Positions 15 to 17,782 of a DNA stretch of 20,130 nt are shown here, piece by piece. The notes under the pieces were generated by a model that did not search any database, was not told the DNA's origin, and saw only the letters and a program-made list of their open reading frames with translations. Numbering within the stretch: the first letter of the stretch is position 1; each line of letters opens with the position of its first letter. Both the position numbers and the translations under genes were made by a program. Source of the DNA: a virus; IMG/VR virus record IMGVR_UViG_3300027608_000209, positions 1-20,130 of that record; one strand, 5' to 3'.

Positions 15-1703
15 TTATTCTTCGTCAGGTACACGGCGCTGGGCGAACCTTGCTCCGTATGCCTTGCTTACAAGTTGATTTACCATCTGCTCTTCTTGGG
101 GGGTAATGACTGGACCAGGCATTGGTCCCCCATCAGGAGAGCCTCCTGCTGAAGATACACTAGCACCTCCAGCCGAAGTCATTTCAGGACCGTCAGGTCC
201 TGGAACCATACCAGTGGCAAGCATTACTGCCATCTGGATTTGAGCATTTAGCATGTCAAGAGCGCCTTGATCCATAGCGTCATCTTGCAATTCCTCAAAG
301 ATTTCGTCCATCTTTTCGTTCGGGAATTCTTCGCCAAGAATACGCAAGGCACCACGCTTGGATTCCAAACCAAGTGCCATCTTTGCTTGAACCTCATTGA
401 GTTTAATAAGTTGGTCAACAGGCAATGGCTCAGGCCAGTGGACAGTTGTCTTATAGGTCAAAGGGTCAGCAGGATCTAATTGAGTTGCTTGGTCACGCTC
501 AGGCATAGCCGATTTGCTTGGGTTGTACTGGAGCATTTGTGGCTCAAATACAGCCGCTGTACGGATAACAATTTCGTTGACACGCTCAAGACCCTTAGTA
601 AAGTGAACCTTTTTCATCATAAAACGGTTCATCATTGGCTGGTATTGAATAGCCAAAGCAACGCCAGATGTGTTAGACACGGGTTGGAATTGACCAAGTG
701 CAGTTTCAGGAACACCAGTCATTTCGTGCATAGTGCGCTTTAGAAACTGGATGTACTCCAAGGCTCCTGACATCTCACCACGAGATTCAAGGTTGAAAAC
801 GCTGGCATCTTTAGGAAGACCTGCCCACACTTTTTTAGGTCCACGCTCCAACTGGGAAGCCTTAGCACCAGTGATGATAGTGACAGGTGCGGCGTGGTAG
901 TTGATGATGTCAGAAACTTCAACCATCTTTTCGTTAAGTTCACGGTTCAATGGGATGATGTCCCAGATGTCTGACTGACCCCAAGGAGATGATGAGATAG
1001 AAGTATTTGGAATATGTACAACAGGAATTGTGCCCAAAGCATTTGGATATTGGTCAATCAATTCGTCATTGATGAACTGTTGAATCATGTCGTCAGAAAG
1101 GATTTCAGTGAATGTATATACCTGACGAGTTCCTTCAGGAGAGGTACCCCAGAAACGGTATTTAAGTTTAAAGCGCAACAAACGATCACGGTCATGTGGG
1201 TGATACTCAGGAAAACAATGCGCTGGGTTCAAAGGAATAATACGAATTCTTCCTTCAATGGGAACACCTACGGAGTCCACATAAGGCTCTTCATAAGCAA
1301 CTTTGACAAAACAGTCACCAGTTACAGATGCTAATTGACCCATTTCCCAAAGAACATAATGTTTTGAGTTGTGATTTTCCCATACTTGTGCAAGAAGATG
1401 AGGAATAATTGCTGAGTTTTGTTCAGGACAACGAAATTGAATACCTTTACCAAAGCAGAAGTTGGTGATGTAGTCCGACATTACACGGACATAGTTCATG
1501 TAGAACTGAGATTCACCCATCTCACGGCGATATGACCAGTGGTGACCAAGGTACCAAGCCCATGCCGCAGAGTAACGGTTCAGGCGTGGGCCATGAACCT
1601 CAAATTCTTCGTCTGCGAGTTCTACCAATCCAAGAGGAGAAATAGCAACTGTAAGGTCGCTAGATGCCGCTCTATAAGATGGGGACCAAAAGTCCATTGC
1701 CAT
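15..1703 (-). CDS. Phage portal protein
   Basis: Portal proteins form the dodecameric ring at one capsid vertex through which the terminase pumps DNA and to which the neck attaches. This 562-aa product is a typical portal length. The N-terminal half has the SPP1/Gp6-like pattern of many aromatic and amphipathic segments (for example YYMNYVRVM-like helices near residues 67-80). The middle carries a 'GIPVVHIPN'-like strand (here GTIPVVHIPN, about residue 224) and a long helical stretch that includes MTGVPETALG (about 329-338), a portal hallmark. The C-terminal 100 residues are Gly/Pro-rich and acidic, probably flexible. The start ATG lies 13 nt after the previous stop, with AAGG about 8 nt upstream. 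It is the last gene in the window. Portal identity rests on recognised family pattern and its place downstream of the terminase. Confidence 0.88.
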   Translation of the reverse strand: MAMDFWSPSYRAASSDLTVAISPLGLVELADEEFEVHGPRLNRYSAAWAWYLGHHWSYRREMGESQFYMNYVRVMSDYITNFCFGKGIQFRCPEQNSAIIPHLLAQVWENHNSKHYVLWEMGQLASVTGDCFVKVAYEEPYVDSVGVPIEGRIRIIPLNPAHCFPEYHPHDRDRLLRFKLKYRFWGTSPEGTRQVYTFTEILSDDMIQQFINDELIDQYPNALGTIPVVHIPNTSISSSPWGQSDIWDIIPLNRELNEKMVEVSDIINYHAAPVTIITGAKASQLERGPKKVWAGLPKDASVFNLESRGEMSGALEYIQFLKRTMHEMTGVPETALGQFQPVSNTSGVALAIQYQPMMNRFMMKKVHFTKGLERVNEIVIRTAAVFEPQMLQYNPSKSAMPERDQATQLDPADPLTYKTTVHWPEPLPVDQLIKLNEVQAKMALGLESKRGALRILGEEFPNEKMDEIFEELQDDAMDQGALDMLNAQIQMAVMLATGMVPGPDGPEMTSAGGASVSSAGGSPDGGPMPGPVITPQEEQMVNQLVSKAYGARFAQRRVPDEE

Positions 1704-1716
1704 AAGTTAGACCTTA

Positions 1717-2403
1717 CTACTTTTTCTTTGGTGGTGGTTTCAATTGACTACCAGTTCCAAGAAAAATAAAGTTTCCTTGACCTGCTGGCACCACTGCCTT
1801 TTTCTTACCACGACCACGGGAAAAAGTTTGTCGTTCTGTTGTGTTTCCAAATACTACTTCATCACCAATAGGTGCGTCAGAAGTAGTATATCGTTCTGCT
1901 TCACCTGGTTGTAATTCCACATTGCCACCTGCACGCTTTAGTACATCGGGGTGTAGTGGGTTATATTCAGTAGTAAATGTACGAAGGTTAAAATTACCCA
2001 TCTGATTCCCAGCAACAGTAGCACCACGGGCTTCCTTGTTTCCTTGAGAAGTTTCTGGGTACACTTTAGAAACATCTAGGAAAACCTGTGGAGTTTCGTT
2101 CTCGTCTTCGTCAATCCAAGTACCAAGTGCTCTATGTGGATGGCCTGTCAAAGCGGCGTGATGTTCTGGAGTATGCATATAGCGAGTGACATCACTTACA
2201 CCAAAGTCATCTACAGGAACACGGTCTTCAAAGCCACCAAGTGATACAGAAGTTCCCGATTCAGCAGGCTCACCTGTTAATGCAAAAGTAGTAGACCCAC
2301 CATACTTCTGGGTAGTTTCGGCTACTGCGCTAGGGTTAACCTTGTTGGATTTGTTGTATACAAAACTGTCAGGATTAAAAATTTCATTTTCATTAGCGGG
2401 CAT
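1717..2403 (-). CDS. Hypothetical phage protein, 228 aa, upstream of portal
   Basis: Unrecognised. It is a soluble 228-aa protein with no signal peptide or membrane segment. The central block (about residues 90-150) has a GTWIDEDE...VFLDVSKVYPE strand pattern followed by GNQMGNFNLRTF. This resembles small phage proteins in which a 'W-(I/V)-D...LDVS' core is followed by a conserved 'NQ' helix, but I cannot name a Pfam family. The ends are rich in Gly, Pro and Lys (terminal PPPKKK) and look disordered. It overlaps the preceding gene by a TAATG junction at 2403 and is followed 13 nt later by the portal, so co-expression with head genes is likely. A minor virion protein or an internal protein is possible. 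Confidence 0.8.
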   Translation of the reverse strand: MPANENEIFNPDSFVYNKSNKVNPSAVAETTQKYGGSTTFALTGEPAESGTSVSLGGFEDRVPVDDFGVSDVTRYMHTPEHHAALTGHPHRALGTWIDEDENETPQVFLDVSKVYPETSQGNKEARGATVAGNQMGNFNLRTFTTEYNPLHPDVLKRAGGNVELQPGEAERYTTSDAPIGDEVVFGNTTERQTFSRGRGKKKAVVPAGQGNFIFLGTGSQLKPPPKKK

Positions 2404-2726
2404 TAATTGCCAGCCTTTGAAGCCGCTTTCTTAGCAGGAGCCACTTTCTTAGCAGGAGCCTTTTTAGCAGTGGCTTTCTTTTTAGCCACTTCTGCCTGAA
2501 CTTCTTCTACAAGTTCTGGAAGTTCTTCCGAAGCCTTGGCAAGAAAGTTTGCTGTACCCCTGTCACCGATCATGGTACTTGCATAGGCAAGACCTGTGAT
2601 AACAAGTGGCATGATTGCAGCCTGTGCGCCTGGGTCAATATTTGCCTTAGCAAGAAAAAACGAAAGTGCGCCGACAATGGCACCCTTTAGAGTCTGGTCT
2701 GCGACCTGTTGGTTCTTTGTAGCCAT
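2403..2726 (-). CDS. Small membrane protein with histone H1-like Lys/Ala tail (holin-like)
   Basis: The 107-aa product has two likely membrane helices (about residues 13-30, TLKGAIVGALSFFLAK, and 36-54, QAAIMPLVITGLAYASTM). An acidic amphipathic helix follows (67-81), then a strongly basic tail of AKKAPAKK-type repeats to the C terminus. Two short hydrophobic helices plus a basic tail is the general design of small phage holins. The tail length and its histone H1/HU-like composition are unusual. The start is well supported: AAGGAG lies 5 nt before the ATG. The product may insert in the inner membrane as a holin or pinholin, or associate with membrane and DNA. No enzymatic motif is seen. The holin assignment is inference. 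Confidence 0.75.
   Translation of the reverse strand: MATKNQQVADQTLKGAIVGALSFFLAKANIDPGAQAAIMPLVITGLAYASTMIGDRGTANFLAKASEELPELVEEVQAEVAKKKATAKKAPAKKVAPAKKAASKAGN
2426..2460. repeat. 18-bp tandem repeat encoding the Lys/Ala/Pro tail
   Basis: The 17-mer CTTTCTTAGCAGGAGCC occurs at 2426-2442 and again at 2444-2460, giving an 18-bp (six-codon) tandem unit. It encodes the APAKK(A/V) repeats of the basic tail of the overlapping membrane protein. The identity at nucleotide level suggests recent duplication, so tail length may vary between relatives. Confidence 0.85.
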
Positions 2727-2757: not shown

Positions 2758-3375
2758 CTATTTTTTTACTTCTCGTTCTTGCGTAAAGGCTTGGAAGGGT
2801 GAACCCGTATATGGATCAAATTTGCTGGCTACAGCAAGAGCCTTGTTAGCAATAGTTTTTGCCTGTTGCGCACTCAGTTTCTTACCCCCTGCAAGGGTCT
2901 GTAGGGCACCAAGAGCATAGGAAGACCCTGTACCAATGGCATAGATTCCAGCCGTGTCCGATGTCCACGAGTAGTCTCCGTCAATAATATAGAGGGTTCC
3001 ATGAACCACCAAAATAATGGTGGACCCATGTTCAGCCATATGTTCAGAGCCTTCACGCTCTGGGACAGAATAGCCCTGCTCGTCAAAACAGGTGCGTAAT
3101 GCTGGGATGAACTGTCGGGTAATGAACTGGTCTAACTTTTTACCGTAGGCGTGCAAGGGTGGAGGAGGTGGTGTGAAAGCGTGATGAAGGATGTTGATGG
3201 CTCTCACATCACCTGCGGCTCCAAGGATGTATTTACCATTTGCGGCAATCTTGCTAGAACCTGCCCCAAGTGTAGTTACTTGGTATGCCATACCTGATTC
3301 GTCAAAAGACGATATACGACTGTCAGTACAAATAACAGCGTAGTTGTCACCCTGAATACCTACGATAGTTGTCAT
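2758..3375 (-). CDS. Proteasome beta/HslV-like N-terminal-threonine peptidase
   Basis: 205 aa. The N terminus MTTIVGIQG places a threonine directly after the initiator Met, as in HslV, so Met removal would expose the catalytic Thr1 of an Ntn hydrolase. Counting from that Thr, Asp17 lies in TDSR, and a lysine in GAGSSKI (residue 41, after an insertion) fits the conserved catalytic Lys33. GAAGD follows (51-55). The motif GTGSSYALGAL matches the beta-subunit GSG(S)xxAxGAL signature, and DPYT near the C terminus matches the Asp166/Ser169 pair. A five-proline stretch (66-70 region) is unusual. An in-frame start exists upstream at 3411, but the ATG at 3375 overlaps the previous stop (TAATG) and gives the family N terminus, so I chose it. 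Family membership is strong. The role (protein turnover, host remodelling or virion maturation) is unknown. Confidence 0.9.
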   Translation of the reverse strand: MTTIVGIQGDNYAVICTDSRISSFDESGMAYQVTTLGAGSSKIAANGKYILGAAGDVRAINILHHAFTPPPPPLHAYGKKLDQFITRQFIPALRTCFDEQGYSVPEREGSEHMAEHGSTIILVVHGTLYIIDGDYSWTSDTAGIYAIGTGSSYALGALQTLAGGKKLSAQQAKTIANKALAVASKFDPYTGSPFQAFTQEREVKK

Positions 3376-4538
3376 TATGCTTTGTATTCCTTGTTGTGAT
3401 ACATCGCCCAACCATCACGAATAGGGATCATCTCAAGATTGAATTCAGCGTCACCGTCTTTGTATGTCACCACACAGAGACCTTGTTGCCAATTTTCAGT
3501 GATGGTCATTGGACGACCATCAAGGTCAATGCCACCTTTAGTGGAAGGTACAACACCATCTACACGAGCAAGACAACCAGCAGAGGCGGCAAGAATAGTT
3601 TTGCGACCATCGTAATCTTCACGAGTTACTTCAGCCCATTCACGGCGATGAATATGTCCATAAAGAACGGATGTCTTCTCATTAGCCAAGTACATGTGTG
3701 CGGTAGAGCCATTGCTCTTAACACGAGTACCGTGGATAACTTTCAACTTCTGGTTAATCCAGTAGTAACCAGCAGGGTAGCCAGGAACATACTTAACATT
3801 AAAGTCATCAAAACGACACAAGAATGGAACAGATAACACAGGCCAGTTATCTGGTGTGTCACCACGCCTCAAACCAAACGAAGCCTTAGCATTGTCCAAT
3901 GTGTAGTTGACAAGGCGCTCTTCATGGTTACCTGCAAGCCACACAATTTCAGCATCTGGTGCAATTGCACGGAGTCGGGCACACAAAATAGTGGCGTAAT
4001 CAATGGACTTTTGAGTCGTCAATGCGTAGGCAGGACTAAGTCGGTACTTACCAAACTCAGCAAAGTCCAAGTTATCACCATGCATAACAACTTTTTCAGG
4101 TTTCAAATCCTTAATCATTGCAATACAAATATCAATAGCGGCTTCGTCATGTATTGGTTCTAGTTCACCGTGTGAGTTACGGAAATAACCAATCTGCATA
4201 TCAGGAAGAACTACTGCTGTGTTCCATTCTGTTTGCTTGTTACTTTTTGTAACTTTTACAGGTGGCAACTTAACTGCTGGTCCCTGCTGAACAGGATTCC
4301 ATTCAGGACCTTCTGCCCACTTGGGTGAGAACTGAATAGCACTTAAGTCATGTATTTGTGCTTCACCGTCAGCATCTTTTGTTAAAGATTGGTAAATAGA
4401 TACACGCTTGACAGAACCAATTTCATTGATATCAATGTTTTGTCGTTCTAATACTTCAAGCAACTTACCAAGAGCCTTGGCATTGTTTGCTGGTTTATTA
4501 AGATCACTCGCCAAGTCGCTCACAAGGGCACTCTCCAT
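3375..4538 (-). CDS. Calcineurin-like metallophosphoesterase
   Basis: 387 aa. The C-terminal two thirds carry the dimetal phosphoesterase motifs in order: PDMQ (Asp113, with Gln115 where His is usual), GDNLD (154-158), GNHEE (203-207), a His in VIHGT (269) and GHIH (294-297). The first 105 residues form a separate, mostly helical N-terminal region of unknown role. Such enzymes hydrolyse phosphomono- or diesters and include Mre11/SbcD nucleases. The substrate cannot be read from the sequence. The DxQ variant of the first motif also occurs in phage members, as far as I recall, and need not abolish activity. The gene start overlaps the HTH gene by 35 nt and its stop overlaps the start of the proteasome-like gene (TAATG), so the two are likely translated together. 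Confidence 0.87.
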   Translation of the reverse strand: MESALVSDLASDLNKPANNAKALGKLLEVLERQNIDINEIGSVKRVSIYQSLTKDADGEAQIHDLSAIQFSPKWAEGPEWNPVQQGPAVKLPPVKVTKSNKQTEWNTAVVLPDMQIGYFRNSHGELEPIHDEAAIDICIAMIKDLKPEKVVMHGDNLDFAEFGKYRLSPAYALTTQKSIDYATILCARLRAIAPDAEIVWLAGNHEERLVNYTLDNAKASFGLRRGDTPDNWPVLSVPFLCRFDDFNVKYVPGYPAGYYWINQKLKVIHGTRVKSNGSTAHMYLANEKTSVLYGHIHRREWAEVTREDYDGRKTILAASAGCLARVDGVVPSTKGGIDLDGRPMTITENWQQGLCVVTYKDGDAEFNLEMIPIRDGWAMYHNKEYKA

Positions 4539-4797
4539 TTATGTGTCGTTGAATTGTACTGATGCTGACGGAATGACCGTGCTTACGCAAGTTTTGTGTG
4601 AGCCATGACGCACTGTAAGTTTTTGAACGACCTTGACCTCTATCGGCTTTAATCAATTCAATGGCTTTATTAAGAGCCTCAATATCCTTTTCTTCCATGT
4701 CTGACATCATGACGGACAACTTGCAATGAACTTGGTTAGCGTTCAAGCGAGGTGCCATCAAATCGTCATACAAAGACCTTTTGTCTTTGTTTGTCAT
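4504..4797 (-). CDS. Small helix-turn-helix DNA-binding protein (RHxxGxCxC type)
   Basis: 97 aa. Residues 62-88 (SASWLTQNLRKHGHSVSIST then IQRHING) read as a helix-turn-helix, with the second helix starting at SISTIQRH. The CPC pair (Cys90, Cys92) follows directly. This 'WL...LR..G..vs.sTiqRHi.g.C.C' pattern is one I associate with small actinophage HTH proteins. The N-terminal half is an acidic helix (32-52). AGGGAG lies 5 nt before the ATG. It is the first gene after an 85-bp gap that contains inverted repeats, and could bind there. A regulator is the simplest reading. A terminase small-subunit-like role is possible but the gene is not next to the large subunit. Confidence 0.72.
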   Translation of the reverse strand: MTNKDKRSLYDDLMAPRLNANQVHCKLSVMMSDMEEKDIEALNKAIELIKADRGQGRSKTYSASWLTQNLRKHGHSVSISTIQRHINGECPCERLGE

Positions 4798-6890: not shown

Positions 6891-8453
6891 CTATCTGAAA
6901 AACGGGCTATTGGACGCTTGCACCTGTGGCATTGTGTCCATAACTGTCAAAGAACAGGCAATAGCCAATGAATCTGGATAGTCGTCAAATGCACCACGCT
7001 CGTTAGGAGCCGCCGCTAATAAGTACGGTCCTTTATAGATTTTTTCAAGGTCAGACATCTGCTGGTTAAAACGCTTCCATGTACGAGTACGGCGAGCCTT
7101 AGAATGTCCTGGAAGAATCAATTGGTCTCTTTGAATAAGTTCCGTCAGATGCACCCAGCGCTCGTTCTGAGCCTTTGAATCAGACGAGATAGGTAAAACC
7201 TCAATATCGGGTAGAAGTAGCGCCAGACGCTCTGCTACAGCGCCTCCTACGCCCTGTGAGTCCACTCCTACACGAAGCAGGTCATAATGGCGAAGGAAGT
7301 CAATAATATGGAAATATTGGGCTTCCCATTCTTCGTTGTTAATCTCAAGCCAGTTAAGTACACGGTGTTCATAGAAGCCAAATGGGTCTGGATGGTCCCA
7401 ATCAACCCACACAATAGTCACAACCGTGGAGTCATTAGAACGAGCCACATCTATGCCTGCCACACAAGGTGTGCGCCACCATTCTTTGACCAAAGGCATA
7501 GATTGGTCATATAGGCGATCCATGCGTTCTTCAGTAACAAACATTCCTTTTTCAAGAATAAATTTATTACAGTAAGACATCTGGAATTCATCGGAGTCTT
7601 CACCAATACGCAGTTTCTCTTTAGAGATAAATTTAGAGTAATTATCGTTGTATTTTGATGCAATACGGTAATCGTACTCAAAATGGGCTTCACGAAACTT
7701 TCGTCCACCATTGGCAGAACGGCGCTTATTGTACTGAATCATACGATAGAAATAAGATTTCTGTCTGTTAGCAGTTCCTGTTAATGCAATTGTTCCGTTG
7801 TTGAACGCCAGCATAGGCTTGATTGACTTAGCAATCATGGTCTCATCGGCTTCCTGAGCCTCGTCAATAAGGACAAAGTGGTAGGTCTTAGATTCAATCT
7901 TTGCCTTGGGGTTACAAGTCTGCATACGGCATAGTGAGCCAGCGTGCTTCAAAGTAATAAGACGACCACGACCACGAGTACCACCACCTGTTGCTTTGTC
8001 ATCAATCTCAGGGTCAAGCAAGAATTGCATTGCGTGATCACTTGTCAACTTAGAAACAATACGACTGAATACAGTTTCAGCCTGTTCTTCTGTTGGCGCA
8101 AATACACCTACCCAAAAACCTTTATTGAACTTCTCTAACCATGTCGGATAGATGGGAGCCAATTTGGGAAGGATGACCATCATGCCAGCCATAACTGCTG
8201 AAAGAACTTCTGATTTACCAGACTGACGAGTTGCTACAACAGTCAACTCATCACCATCTCCTAACACAACAGATTCAACAATGCGATATGCAATCGGGAT
8301 TTGGTAGGGAAAGAATTCAATGTCGCAGAACTCTTCAGTAAAGATAATGATTCGTTTTACTAATTGGTCAACGAATTCAGCCGATGTCTCGTCCAGTTCT
8401 TCGGGGTCACCAAAGTCCTCCAACGGTTCAACAAGATCGTCCTGTTCAATCAT
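6891..8453 (-). CDS. terL: Terminase large subunit (ATPase/nuclease)
   Basis: The packaging motor: an N-terminal ATPase drives DNA through the portal and a C-terminal RNase H-fold nuclease cuts the concatemer. This 520-aa protein shows Walker A ATRQSGKS (74-81), Walker B VLIDEA (194-199), the coupling motif LTGT (224-227), and the nuclease acidic residues in GIDVARSND (Asp335), VGVDSQG (Asp398) and FDDYPDS (Asp490-494). Length and motif order are normal, and nothing suggests inactivation. The start ATG overlaps the stop of the small upstream gene (ATGA, 8453-8450). A classical small subunit was not identified. The 73-aa gene just upstream is a positional candidate. Confidence 0.96.
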   Translation of the reverse strand: MIEQDDLVEPLEDFGDPEELDETSAEFVDQLVKRIIIFTEEFCDIEFFPYQIPIAYRIVESVVLGDGDELTVVATRQSGKSEVLSAVMAGMMVILPKLAPIYPTWLEKFNKGFWVGVFAPTEEQAETVFSRIVSKLTSDHAMQFLLDPEIDDKATGGGTRGRGRLITLKHAGSLCRMQTCNPKAKIESKTYHFVLIDEAQEADETMIAKSIKPMLAFNNGTIALTGTANRQKSYFYRMIQYNKRRSANGGRKFREAHFEYDYRIASKYNDNYSKFISKEKLRIGEDSDEFQMSYCNKFILEKGMFVTEERMDRLYDQSMPLVKEWWRTPCVAGIDVARSNDSTVVTIVWVDWDHPDPFGFYEHRVLNWLEINNEEWEAQYFHIIDFLRHYDLLRVGVDSQGVGGAVAERLALLLPDIEVLPISSDSKAQNERWVHLTELIQRDQLILPGHSKARRTRTWKRFNQQMSDLEKIYKGPYLLAAAPNERGAFDDYPDSLAIACSLTVMDTMPQVQASNSPFFR

Positions 8454-16457: not shown

Positions 16458-16622
16458 TTACTCGCCGCCTTTACCAAAACCAGACAGGATATGCACCGTC
16501 AGGGCAACTCCACTAATCCACAGGCCGTAGGTGCGCACTTGTCCAGACAAAGTAATTAAAACTAACGCTGTGCCAGCAAGGGTAAAGGCTAAACCTTGGA
16601 GTTCTTCAAAAAATCTATTCAT
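16458..16622 (-). CDS. 54-aa membrane protein
   Basis: A short gene found by reading the strand directly. The start ATG overlaps the stop of the threonine-rich gene (ATGA, 16622-16619) and the stop TAA is at 16458-16460. The product MNRFFEELQGLAFTLAGTAL begins with a short amphipathic segment. Two hydrophobic stretches (about 11-26 and 31-48) fit two short membrane helices, with a GKGGE tail. Size and topology suit a holin, antiholin or small membrane partner of the upstream surface protein. Confidence 0.7.
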   Translation of the reverse strand: MNRFFEELQGLAFTLAGTALVLITLSGQVRTYGLWISGVALTVHILSGFGKGGE

Positions 16623-17782
16623 TGTTGCTTCCTACTAGGGGTTGATGACTGAGAACCACTGGTGGACGAAGAGACAGGAACTACTGGTGCCATAAATAAT
16701 ACCCCAGTTGCGGCAACTAAGATTTTTCGTTGCATAACATTGATTGTGGAACCACGGGGCACATATTTATCAAATTTTCCGCCAAAGATGTTAATCTCCT
16801 CCTCAAAGGAGGCTTTAACTTCATCGGAAGCGCCAGATACAGCGTCAACCAATTGGTCGGCTTGATCGTCTGTAAGACTAGATACATCTACAGAGTCAAA
16901 GATTTCAGTTGCTTGGTCTGCCGTTACTGATTCAAGAACATCTGGGTTGGTGGCAAGAGCAGTTGCTTCTTCGGCACTGACACCTTCTTCAATAATGTTT
17001 TCCACAGCCGCTTGTACTTCTGATTGTGGAAGCATACTGATAGCGCCTAATAGAGCAGTAACTTCTGGGTCAACTTGTGGTAGTTCAGGAGTTATAGGTG
17101 CTAATGTGGTCGTAGTCGGAACCGTAGTGGAGGTTGTAGATGTTGAAGATGTTGTTGTCGTGGTTGCCACAACCACAGCAGGCACAGTGCTGGTCGTGGT
17201 GGAAGCGACTGAGGTCGTGGTGGTTGGCGCAAGAGTTGTTGAAGTTGTCGTTGTGGTTGTCGGCAATACTGTTGTGGTGGTTGTTGTCGTTGTGGTGGTC
17301 GTTGTCGTAGATGTGGAAGTGGTGGTGCTTGTTGTGGTCGTTGACGATGTTGTTGTGGTTGTCTGTTCTACTGTGGTAGTTGTCTGCATAGACCCAACCC
17401 CATTGAACCCCAGTTCATACTGTAAATTCCAGCCTCCACCTGTACGCCAAGCGTTAGGGTCGCCACAGCAGATACCAGCCCTCAGTCTGTAACGACCAGC
17501 AGGTACGGCTATAGAGATGTACGACTGTAAACCATACGAGTCATCATTCGCTGCGAGTTGTACGCCTTGTTCGTCATAAAGCCACAGCATCGGGTCTGAG
17601 TTGTACCCAGTAACCATGTAGGTTTGCGCTACGAATTGTGTTGGTTCTGAATAGTCAAACCAAACATCTGTTGGTTCTGTGATTATTAAGTTTTCGGCTT
17701 TTACGGGGGCCGAATAGAATCCCAAAAATGTGAGCATTACCCACAAGAAACAACTTGTAACCCGTACACGGGATTTAAGCAT
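16619..17782 (-). CDS. Secreted, membrane-anchored Thr-rich surface protein
   Basis: 387 aa. Residues 1-29 form a signal peptide (basic start, hydrophobic SCFLWVMLTFLGFYS, cleavage after APVKA). Residues 30-128 form a beta domain resembling PPC-type secreted domains (NDDSYGLQSYISIAVPAGRYRLRAG). Residues 134-229 are almost pure Thr with Ser/Val/Pro, a mucin-like stalk. A helical acidic domain (240-330) follows, then FEEEINIFGGKFDKYVPRGS and a single membrane anchor (352-369), leaving a short tail. This implies display on the infected cell surface rather than in the virion. Its role might be receptor masking, superinfection exclusion or cell adhesion. The architecture resembles actinobacterial surface proteins, so host origin is plausible. 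The Thr stretch is low-complexity. Confidence 0.83.
   Translation of the reverse strand: MLKSRVRVTSCFLWVMLTFLGFYSAPVKAENLIITEPTDVWFDYSEPTQFVAQTYMVTGYNSDPMLWLYDEQGVQLAANDDSYGLQSYISIAVPAGRYRLRAGICCGDPNAWRTGGGWNLQYELGFNGVGSMQTTTTVEQTTTTTSSTTTTSTTTSTSTTTTTTTTTTTTTVLPTTTTTTSTTLAPTTTTSVASTTTSTVPAVVVATTTTTSSTSTTSTTVPTTTTLAPITPELPQVDPEVTALLGAISMLPQSEVQAAVENIIEEGVSAEEATALATNPDVLESVTADQATEIFDSVDVSSLTDDQADQLVDAVSGASDEVKASFEEEINIFGGKFDKYVPRGSTINVMQRKILVAATGVLFMAPVVPVSSSTSGSQSSTPSRKQQ
17096..17383 (-). repeat. Threonine-codon low-complexity tract (mucin-like stalk)
   Basis: About 96 codons encode Thr with scattered Ser, Val, Pro and Ala. The plus strand therefore reads as GTT/GTC/GTG/GTA repeats, which produce a long valine-rich false ORF. 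Mixed third positions (not one repeated codon) indicate selection for the amino-acid composition rather than simple slippage. Confidence 0.9.

Follow-up and report, generated by a model that had tools for sequence, protein, structure and literature searches.

A phage-encoded proteasome-like threonine peptidase that probably acts as a self-gated ring and travels with a metallophosphoesterase gene

Introduction

Several described systems come close to the phage peptidase reported here, among them BPH and HslV. BPH (beta-proteobacterial proteasome homologue; PDB 5ovs, 5ovt) has been solved as a heptameric double ring and, like the phage protein, is made without a propeptide, while HslV has in common with the phage protein the Thr1/Asp17/Lys33 set and a conserved GSGG/GTGS region. 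To our knowledge, the proteasome homologues that phages themselves encode have no known function so far. BPH carries a long acidic pore loop and has no known unfoldase, whereas the loop of HslV is very short (Fuchs et al. 2021, PMC8665760). The same survey reported neither a co-occurring AAA+ partner nor an informative gene context for phage proteasome homologues (PMC8665760).

We investigated a 20,130-base DNA fragment from a virus of freshwater bacteria (IMG/VR record IMGVR_UViG_3300027608_000209, which has nothing beyond this fragment), referred to below as the window. An earlier note on this DNA had proposed that it encodes a proteasome/HslV-like peptidase of the Ntn type with intact catalytic residues.

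Gene, product and catalytic residues

The peptidase gene spans 2758-3375 and is read from the minus strand, with its ATG at 3375 and its stop codon ending at 2758; a plus-strand reading of the same positions was ruled out by stops throughout. The product of 205 aa begins with MTTIVGIQGDNYAVICTDSRIS, so that it starts Met-Thr-Thr. Numbering the residues from Thr1, we located the codons of Thr1 at 3372-3370, Asp17 at 3324-3322 and Lys41 at 3252-3250, a GTGS motif at residues 147-150 and the sequence D186-P-Y-T189. The start, Asp17, Lys33 equivalent, GTGS and D-x-x-T pair listed in the earlier note were thus all found in the minus-strand product. The protein matched a single Pfam family, PF00227 (Proteasome; E 4e-9, above the family cut-off), as well as PHROG 1040, 'peptidase HslV family' (phrog_1040; E 1.4e-25). 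When a profile of 51 phage homologues was used, solved HslV and BPH chains were the best sequence matches.

We then aligned 64 distinct homologues. Thr1, Asp17 and Lys41 were each invariant (64/64), and Thr2, the oxyanion-side AAG and GxG were invariant or nearly so; by alignment, Lys41 is the equivalent of Lys33. No conserved active-site substitution was found among these homologues, which leaves the catalytic set intact as had been proposed. The dN/dS ratio of 25 pairs had a median of 0.019 and a maximum of 0.15, indicating strongly purifying selection. Conservation began at MTT in all peptidase lineages and no propeptide was seen. Removal of Met from Met-Thr starts is established, and the beginning of conservation at MTT in every lineage means that Thr1 would become exposed in this way. 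Judged by its sequence, the peptidase looks catalytically competent.

Predicted fold and pore loop

An AlphaFold monomer model of the peptidase, built with 51 sequences, reached a pLDDT of 86.7 and a pTM of 0.84. It showed the strand and helix order of a proteasome beta subunit and the Ntn alpha-beta-beta-alpha fold, with H1 to H4 present. Topology and alignment together place Thr1, Asp17 and the Lys33 equivalent at one predicted site in this fold. The closest solved structures were BPH (E 1e-11, TM 0.72/0.79), then HslV, then 20S beta subunits, and the closest predicted viral structure was an uncultured-phage protein named HslV (TM 0.85/0.90). Because the matches to PF00227 and phrog_1040, the sequence matches to HslV and BPH, the fold match to BPH, the invariant Thr1, Asp17 and Lys41 and the low dN/dS agree, we rejected a chance resemblance. 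The protein is very likely a phage-borne group-I (HslV/BPH/AAH branch) proteasome-like threonine peptidase, and in this respect the earlier proposal was borne out.

The loop after H2, which is the pore loop, was 17-21 residues long with 2-5 net acidic residues in 64/64 homologues, in a region of low model confidence. The earlier note had considered a solitary HslV/Anbu-like ring. Since BPH is the best fold match and the acidic loop of 17-21 residues is like that of the unfoldase-free BPH, a solitary ring is favoured, but the Anbu-like part of that suggestion proved wrong by sequence. A BPH-type ring is the more probable form of the phage peptidase. The two proteins are about 20% identical, and the heptameric double ring is solved for BPH, whereas the phage assembly is inferred.

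Compared with BPH, the phage protein also has a lengthened S3/S4 hairpin, and its Asp17-to-Lys spacing is 24 residues instead of 16. This extra length falls at the insertion site of the connectase helices (PMC8665760), so that the peptidase could instead be a specific processing enzyme or a connectase-like ligase, whose specificity would come from this longer hairpin close to the active site. We consider this very improbable: the insertion of about 8 residues is non-helical in the model and is missing or shorter in L041 and in the cultured phage DSL-LC01, and H1 to H4 are present in the peptidase, while connectase is without H1 and H2.

Relatives and class membership

The peptidase is of a kind that is already known from at least 575 IMG/VR loci encoding relatives, from cultured phages and from the survey of Fuchs et al. 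2021; 23 phage records encode relatives as well. A scan of 84,980 genomes with the homologue alignment gave one match, in a MAG, which is probably a stray phage contig. In the tree, the window's clade comprised 39 phage sequences (support 93/83) and stood apart from HslV (100/99) and Anbu. Rhizobial, Streptomyces and Paraburkholderia proteins grouped with other phages, apart from the window's clade, on deep branches that were weak.

We next compared the peptidase with each described class. Membership in HslV was rejected: the NCBIfam HslV models gave 32-34 bits against cut-offs of 137-158, the clade is separate, and no hslU lies beside the phage gene. Anbu was rejected as well, as the phage profile gave Anbu proteins scores of -1.5 to 3 bits and the model is without the C-terminal helix (H5). 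PPH proteins have about 140 residues and no H2 (Fuchs et al. 2021), in contrast to the 205 aa of the phage protein and its long helix at 78-99.

The nearest cellular relatives found were plasmid-borne rhizobial and Streptomyces proteins, which scored 60-67 bits with the profile versus 13-34 for HslV. By taxonomic description (alphaproteobacteria, Actinobacteria), this group is a candidate for the AAH class of Fuchs et al. 2021. AAH-type cellular proteins and phage relatives such as MTATph1 resemble the window peptidase (hhalign E 8e-20, 32% identity), and the PP motif and the loop are common to both. The AAH-type cellular set differs in that its members start MTCIVGL or MTVIVGL, have a shorter Asp17-Lys spacing and form a separate clade in the tree. 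The PHROG 1040 phages PBECO4, pT24 and Tunturi_5 belong to the same family as the window peptidase, but their peptidases are 23-27% identical to it and lie outside the head locus, in nucleotide-metabolism or host-takeover regions where annotated.

Gene settings and the question of an unfoldase

Four settings of the gene were observed. In setting A, the window type, the order is terminase, further genes, small HTH-like gene, metallophosphoesterase, peptidase, small Lys-rich gene, an unknown gene, portal, coiled-coil scaffold and major head protein (MCP). Setting B has a small HTH-like gene, phosphoesterase, peptidase and WhiB among regulators; in setting C, the peptidase lies beside small regulatory and holin-like genes; and setting D is that of giant phages, with the peptidase near a ubiquitin-like/AAA+ cassette. 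In the cultured phage DSL-LC01 (48% identity), the peptidase adjoins WhiB about 5.4 kb before the terminase. In more distant cultured phages, its neighbours are genes for ThyX/MazG, dCMP deaminase, RNA ligase/kinase, Sir2 or PhoH. Relatives thus have the peptidase amid regulatory, nucleotide-metabolism or RNA-repair genes. A phage-like contig with peptidase, phosphoesterase and WhiB (L131, JAURLY010000091.1) was binned in a 'Gammaproteobacteria' MAG; the presence of WhiB suggests that the contig comes from an actinobacterial phage and was misbinned.

As the earlier note had stated, no ATPase partner or alpha subunit was present among the window ORFs. HslU-, ClpX- and ClpP-type genes were absent from the A-type genomes searched, which gave no AAA_2 match and whose sole AAA matches were weak ones in frames of 222-225 aa (G001, G013, G018). 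With no ClpP or strong AAA+ match in the window's relatives, an unfoldase of the host is possible. The peptidase could then be a proteolytic chamber that is fed by a host Clp, ARC/Mpa or other AAA+ protein, hijacking the unfolding activity of the host to break down proteins of either host or phage. Chambers of the HslV type generally depend on an ATPase, and the host of window-type phages is probably an actinobacterium, as judged from WhiB in the relatives and from the host of DSL-LC01. However, in its length and acidity the pore loop resembles that of BPH and not that of HslV, no docking feature was identified on the peptidase, and the window phage itself has no assigned host. We therefore regard feeding by a host unfoldase as rather unlikely, and a self-gated BPH-type ring remains the preferred reading.

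Linkage to a metallophosphoesterase and independence from head genes

The window carries a terminase large subunit gene at 6891-8453 (minus strand; phrog_2, E 1.3e-23) and a portal gene at 15-1703 (minus strand; phrog_64, E 1.3e-42). The peptidase lies between them, which agrees with the packaging/head region given in the earlier note. Immediately upstream of the peptidase, at 3375-4538 (minus strand), is a calcineurin-like metallophosphoesterase of 387 aa (phrog_20266, E 1.6e-79), whose stop codon overlaps the peptidase start by one base (TAATG). Its motifs PDxQ, GDN, GNHE, H and GHIH were invariant. The phosphoesterase is preceded by a small helix-turn-helix-like protein gene at 4504-4797 (minus strand; 97 aa, weak HTH match). 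Directly downstream of the peptidase, at 2403-2726 (minus strand), a small protein of 107 aa is encoded that contains hydrophobic stretches and has a tail rich in Ala and Lys. Elsewhere in the window, the product of a minus-strand gene at 16619-17782 has a start resembling a signal peptide and a long tract rich in Thr and Ser, and its homologues recur in 14 related-phage loci.

Of the 64 distinct homologues, 24 had the phosphoesterase directly adjoining the peptidase (-1 to +9 nt). These came from portal as well as WhiB settings and included 16/16 of the portal-type loci with upstream sequence. An immediately adjacent phosphoesterase was missing in 40/64 homologues, so the link is inessential to the family. 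In L037-L039, the phosphoesterase upstream of the peptidase is replaced by a member of another calcineurin-like family (phrog_284 exonuclease), which two DNA methyltransferase-like genes separate from the peptidase.

We compared pairwise divergences in 11 related A-type head loci by Mantel tests. The peptidase closely followed the phosphoesterase (rho 0.80, Mantel p 0.0003; partial rho given portal 0.79). Given the phosphoesterase, its partial correlation was -0.16 with scaffold and 0.01 with MCP, neither significant, while portal and scaffold followed each other (rho 0.88). The HTH-like gene followed the portal (rho 0.80) and not the peptidase (0.14), and the 107-aa protein partly followed the peptidase (rho 0.71) and the phosphoesterase (0.69). 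So the phosphoesterase, peptidase and small protein genes form a short block whose history is apart from that of the head genes on either side. Whether peptidase and phosphoesterase also function jointly is evenly balanced. The model of the phosphoesterase was of moderate quality (pLDDT 73) and matched Mre11/SbcD weakly (TM 0.3-0.4), so that the enzyme may be either a nuclease or a phosphatase. PADLOC gave no match for the peptidase or the phosphoesterase.

These data also bear on the suggestion that the peptidase is an unusual maturation protease, recruited into the head locus of the window's lineage to remove the scaffold during prohead maturation. Its position between terminase and portal fits such a role, as the peptidase is always in the head locus in the window's own group, where scaffold and MCP come after the portal with no protease gene between. 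A search for proteases of the S78 and ClpP/S14 types gave no match in the A-type genomes G001, G008, G013 and G018 (three of them 94-97 kb), and the lack of S78 or S14 in the first three of these also speaks for the role. However, the separate history of the block speaks against a protease adapted to scaffold or capsid. Homologues that are 62-72% identical were situated in loci other than the head locus, and a prohead protease of the S78 type is encoded separately in relatives of groups B (G002, G003, G016) and C (G004, G007, G014) as well as in DSL-LC01. In G004, unannotated frames of portal and capsid size lie on the two sides of the S78 protein (695 aa), and the peptidase lies elsewhere. 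The MCPs, of phrog_1357/Phage_capsid_3-4 types, begin with an N-terminal stretch that is short and variable, and they lack a delta-like domain. Membership in the S78/S14-type head proteases was rejected, as the peptidase matched PF00227 only. The maturation role was accordingly not upheld: the peptidase is very probably not a capsid protease, and we hold head maturation in the window's lineage to be quite unlikely.

In the B-type genomes G002, G003 and G016, the S78 domain is part of very long frames (2,900-3,970 aa), and in G003 (L144:9635-18463) it lies N-terminally, which suggests a giant head polyprotein.

A ubiquitin-like/AAA+ cassette in giant relatives

Giant freshwater sister phages (L135:1918-10335 in G010, L134, L136, L137 and L192-L214) carry, in this order, genes for a JAMM protein, a ThiF/E1 protein, a ubiquitin-like protein, a CDC48/PAN-like AAA+ protein and an E2-like protein. 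The JAMM protein matched Prok-JAB just under the cut-off (E 2e-5) and PRTRC_A weakly; the ThiF/E1 protein matched PF00899 (E 7e-14) and PRTRC_ThiF (3e-7). The putative ubiquitin-like protein is 83-85 aa long and ends GEKG, and the putative E2 was recognised by its PN..G..CL motif alone, both assignments being based on motif and gene order. The AAA+ protein of 533-540 aa has domain matches to CDC48 (8e-32) and PAN (3e-31). The cassette resembles the PRTRC-type ubiquitin-like cassettes, since PRTRC_A and PRTRC_ThiF were the best NCBIfam matches of JAMM and ThiF, weak and below cut-off; it differs from them in that the giant phages add the AAA+ protein and a proteasome-like peptidase in the same region.

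We examined 21 cassette contigs, comprising 19 contigs with 20 loci from an AAA+ search plus G011 and G017. In 11 of them, the peptidase followed 8.5-13.6 kb downstream of the cassette and had the same orientation (12 copies, two in G010); it was absent from the other 10, most of which are probably incomplete. G010 (268 kb) holds two diverged cassette copies, at about 16-33 kb and 232-252 kb, whose AAA+ proteins are 64% identical and which are each accompanied by a separate peptidase gene. G009 and G010 (L132:3652-5064, L133:3573-4991) and G017 also encode an AAA_2 ATPase that resembles ClpX/ClpB and has about 473 aa (PF07724, E about 1e-51); its gene adjoins a RecA-like gene on the other strand.

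The giant-phage cassette and peptidase together make a candidate phage tag-and-degrade system. The peptidase clade as a whole might then be the proteolytic arm of such a system, with the AAA+ protein unfolding tagged proteins into the peptidase, which in the window lineage would have become detached and paired with the phosphoesterase instead. This broader reading is doubtful. The window's relatives are without the cassette, no HbYX docking motif was found on the giant-phage AAA+ proteins, their C-termini were not clearly different with versus without the peptidase, and co-occurrence among related phages can arise by inheritance alone. In the literature, incompletely covered, we found no paper describing the combination of such a cassette with a proteasome-like peptidase.

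Discussion

In the explanation that we favour, host methionine aminopeptidase would remove Met and expose Thr1 with no propeptide. The subunits would most likely form a BPH-like double ring, in which the long acidic pore loops may limit entry, and the ring would cut proteins that are small, unfolded or delivered to it, with no dedicated unfoldase encoded by the window phage. The peptidase is probably translated together with the metallophosphoesterase, and the two seem to move between phages together. As it travels with the phosphoesterase and not with the capsid genes, its cleavage of proteins most likely takes place within the infected cell, where it would act as an accessory enzyme and not as a capsid maturation protease. 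A first guess at its targets would be host regulatory or proteolysis-sensitive defence proteins. On balance, we infer that a self-gated BPH-type threonine peptidase ring that acts in the infected cell and is transferred with a metallophosphoesterase is the likeliest account, with activity, ring form, gating and substrates all predicted.

As far as the available literature shows, it is new that the peptidase is linked to a phosphoesterase, that its history is independent of the head genes and that giant relatives have it in the neighbourhood of ubiquitin-like and AAA+ genes. These findings provide two testable contexts for phage proteasome homologues, namely a co-transferred, overlapping phosphoesterase in the window lineage and a conserved ubiquitin-like/AAA+ cassette, encoded on the same strand, in giant relatives. 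If the cassette is functional, bacterial viruses would run their own ubiquitin-proteasome-like pathway.
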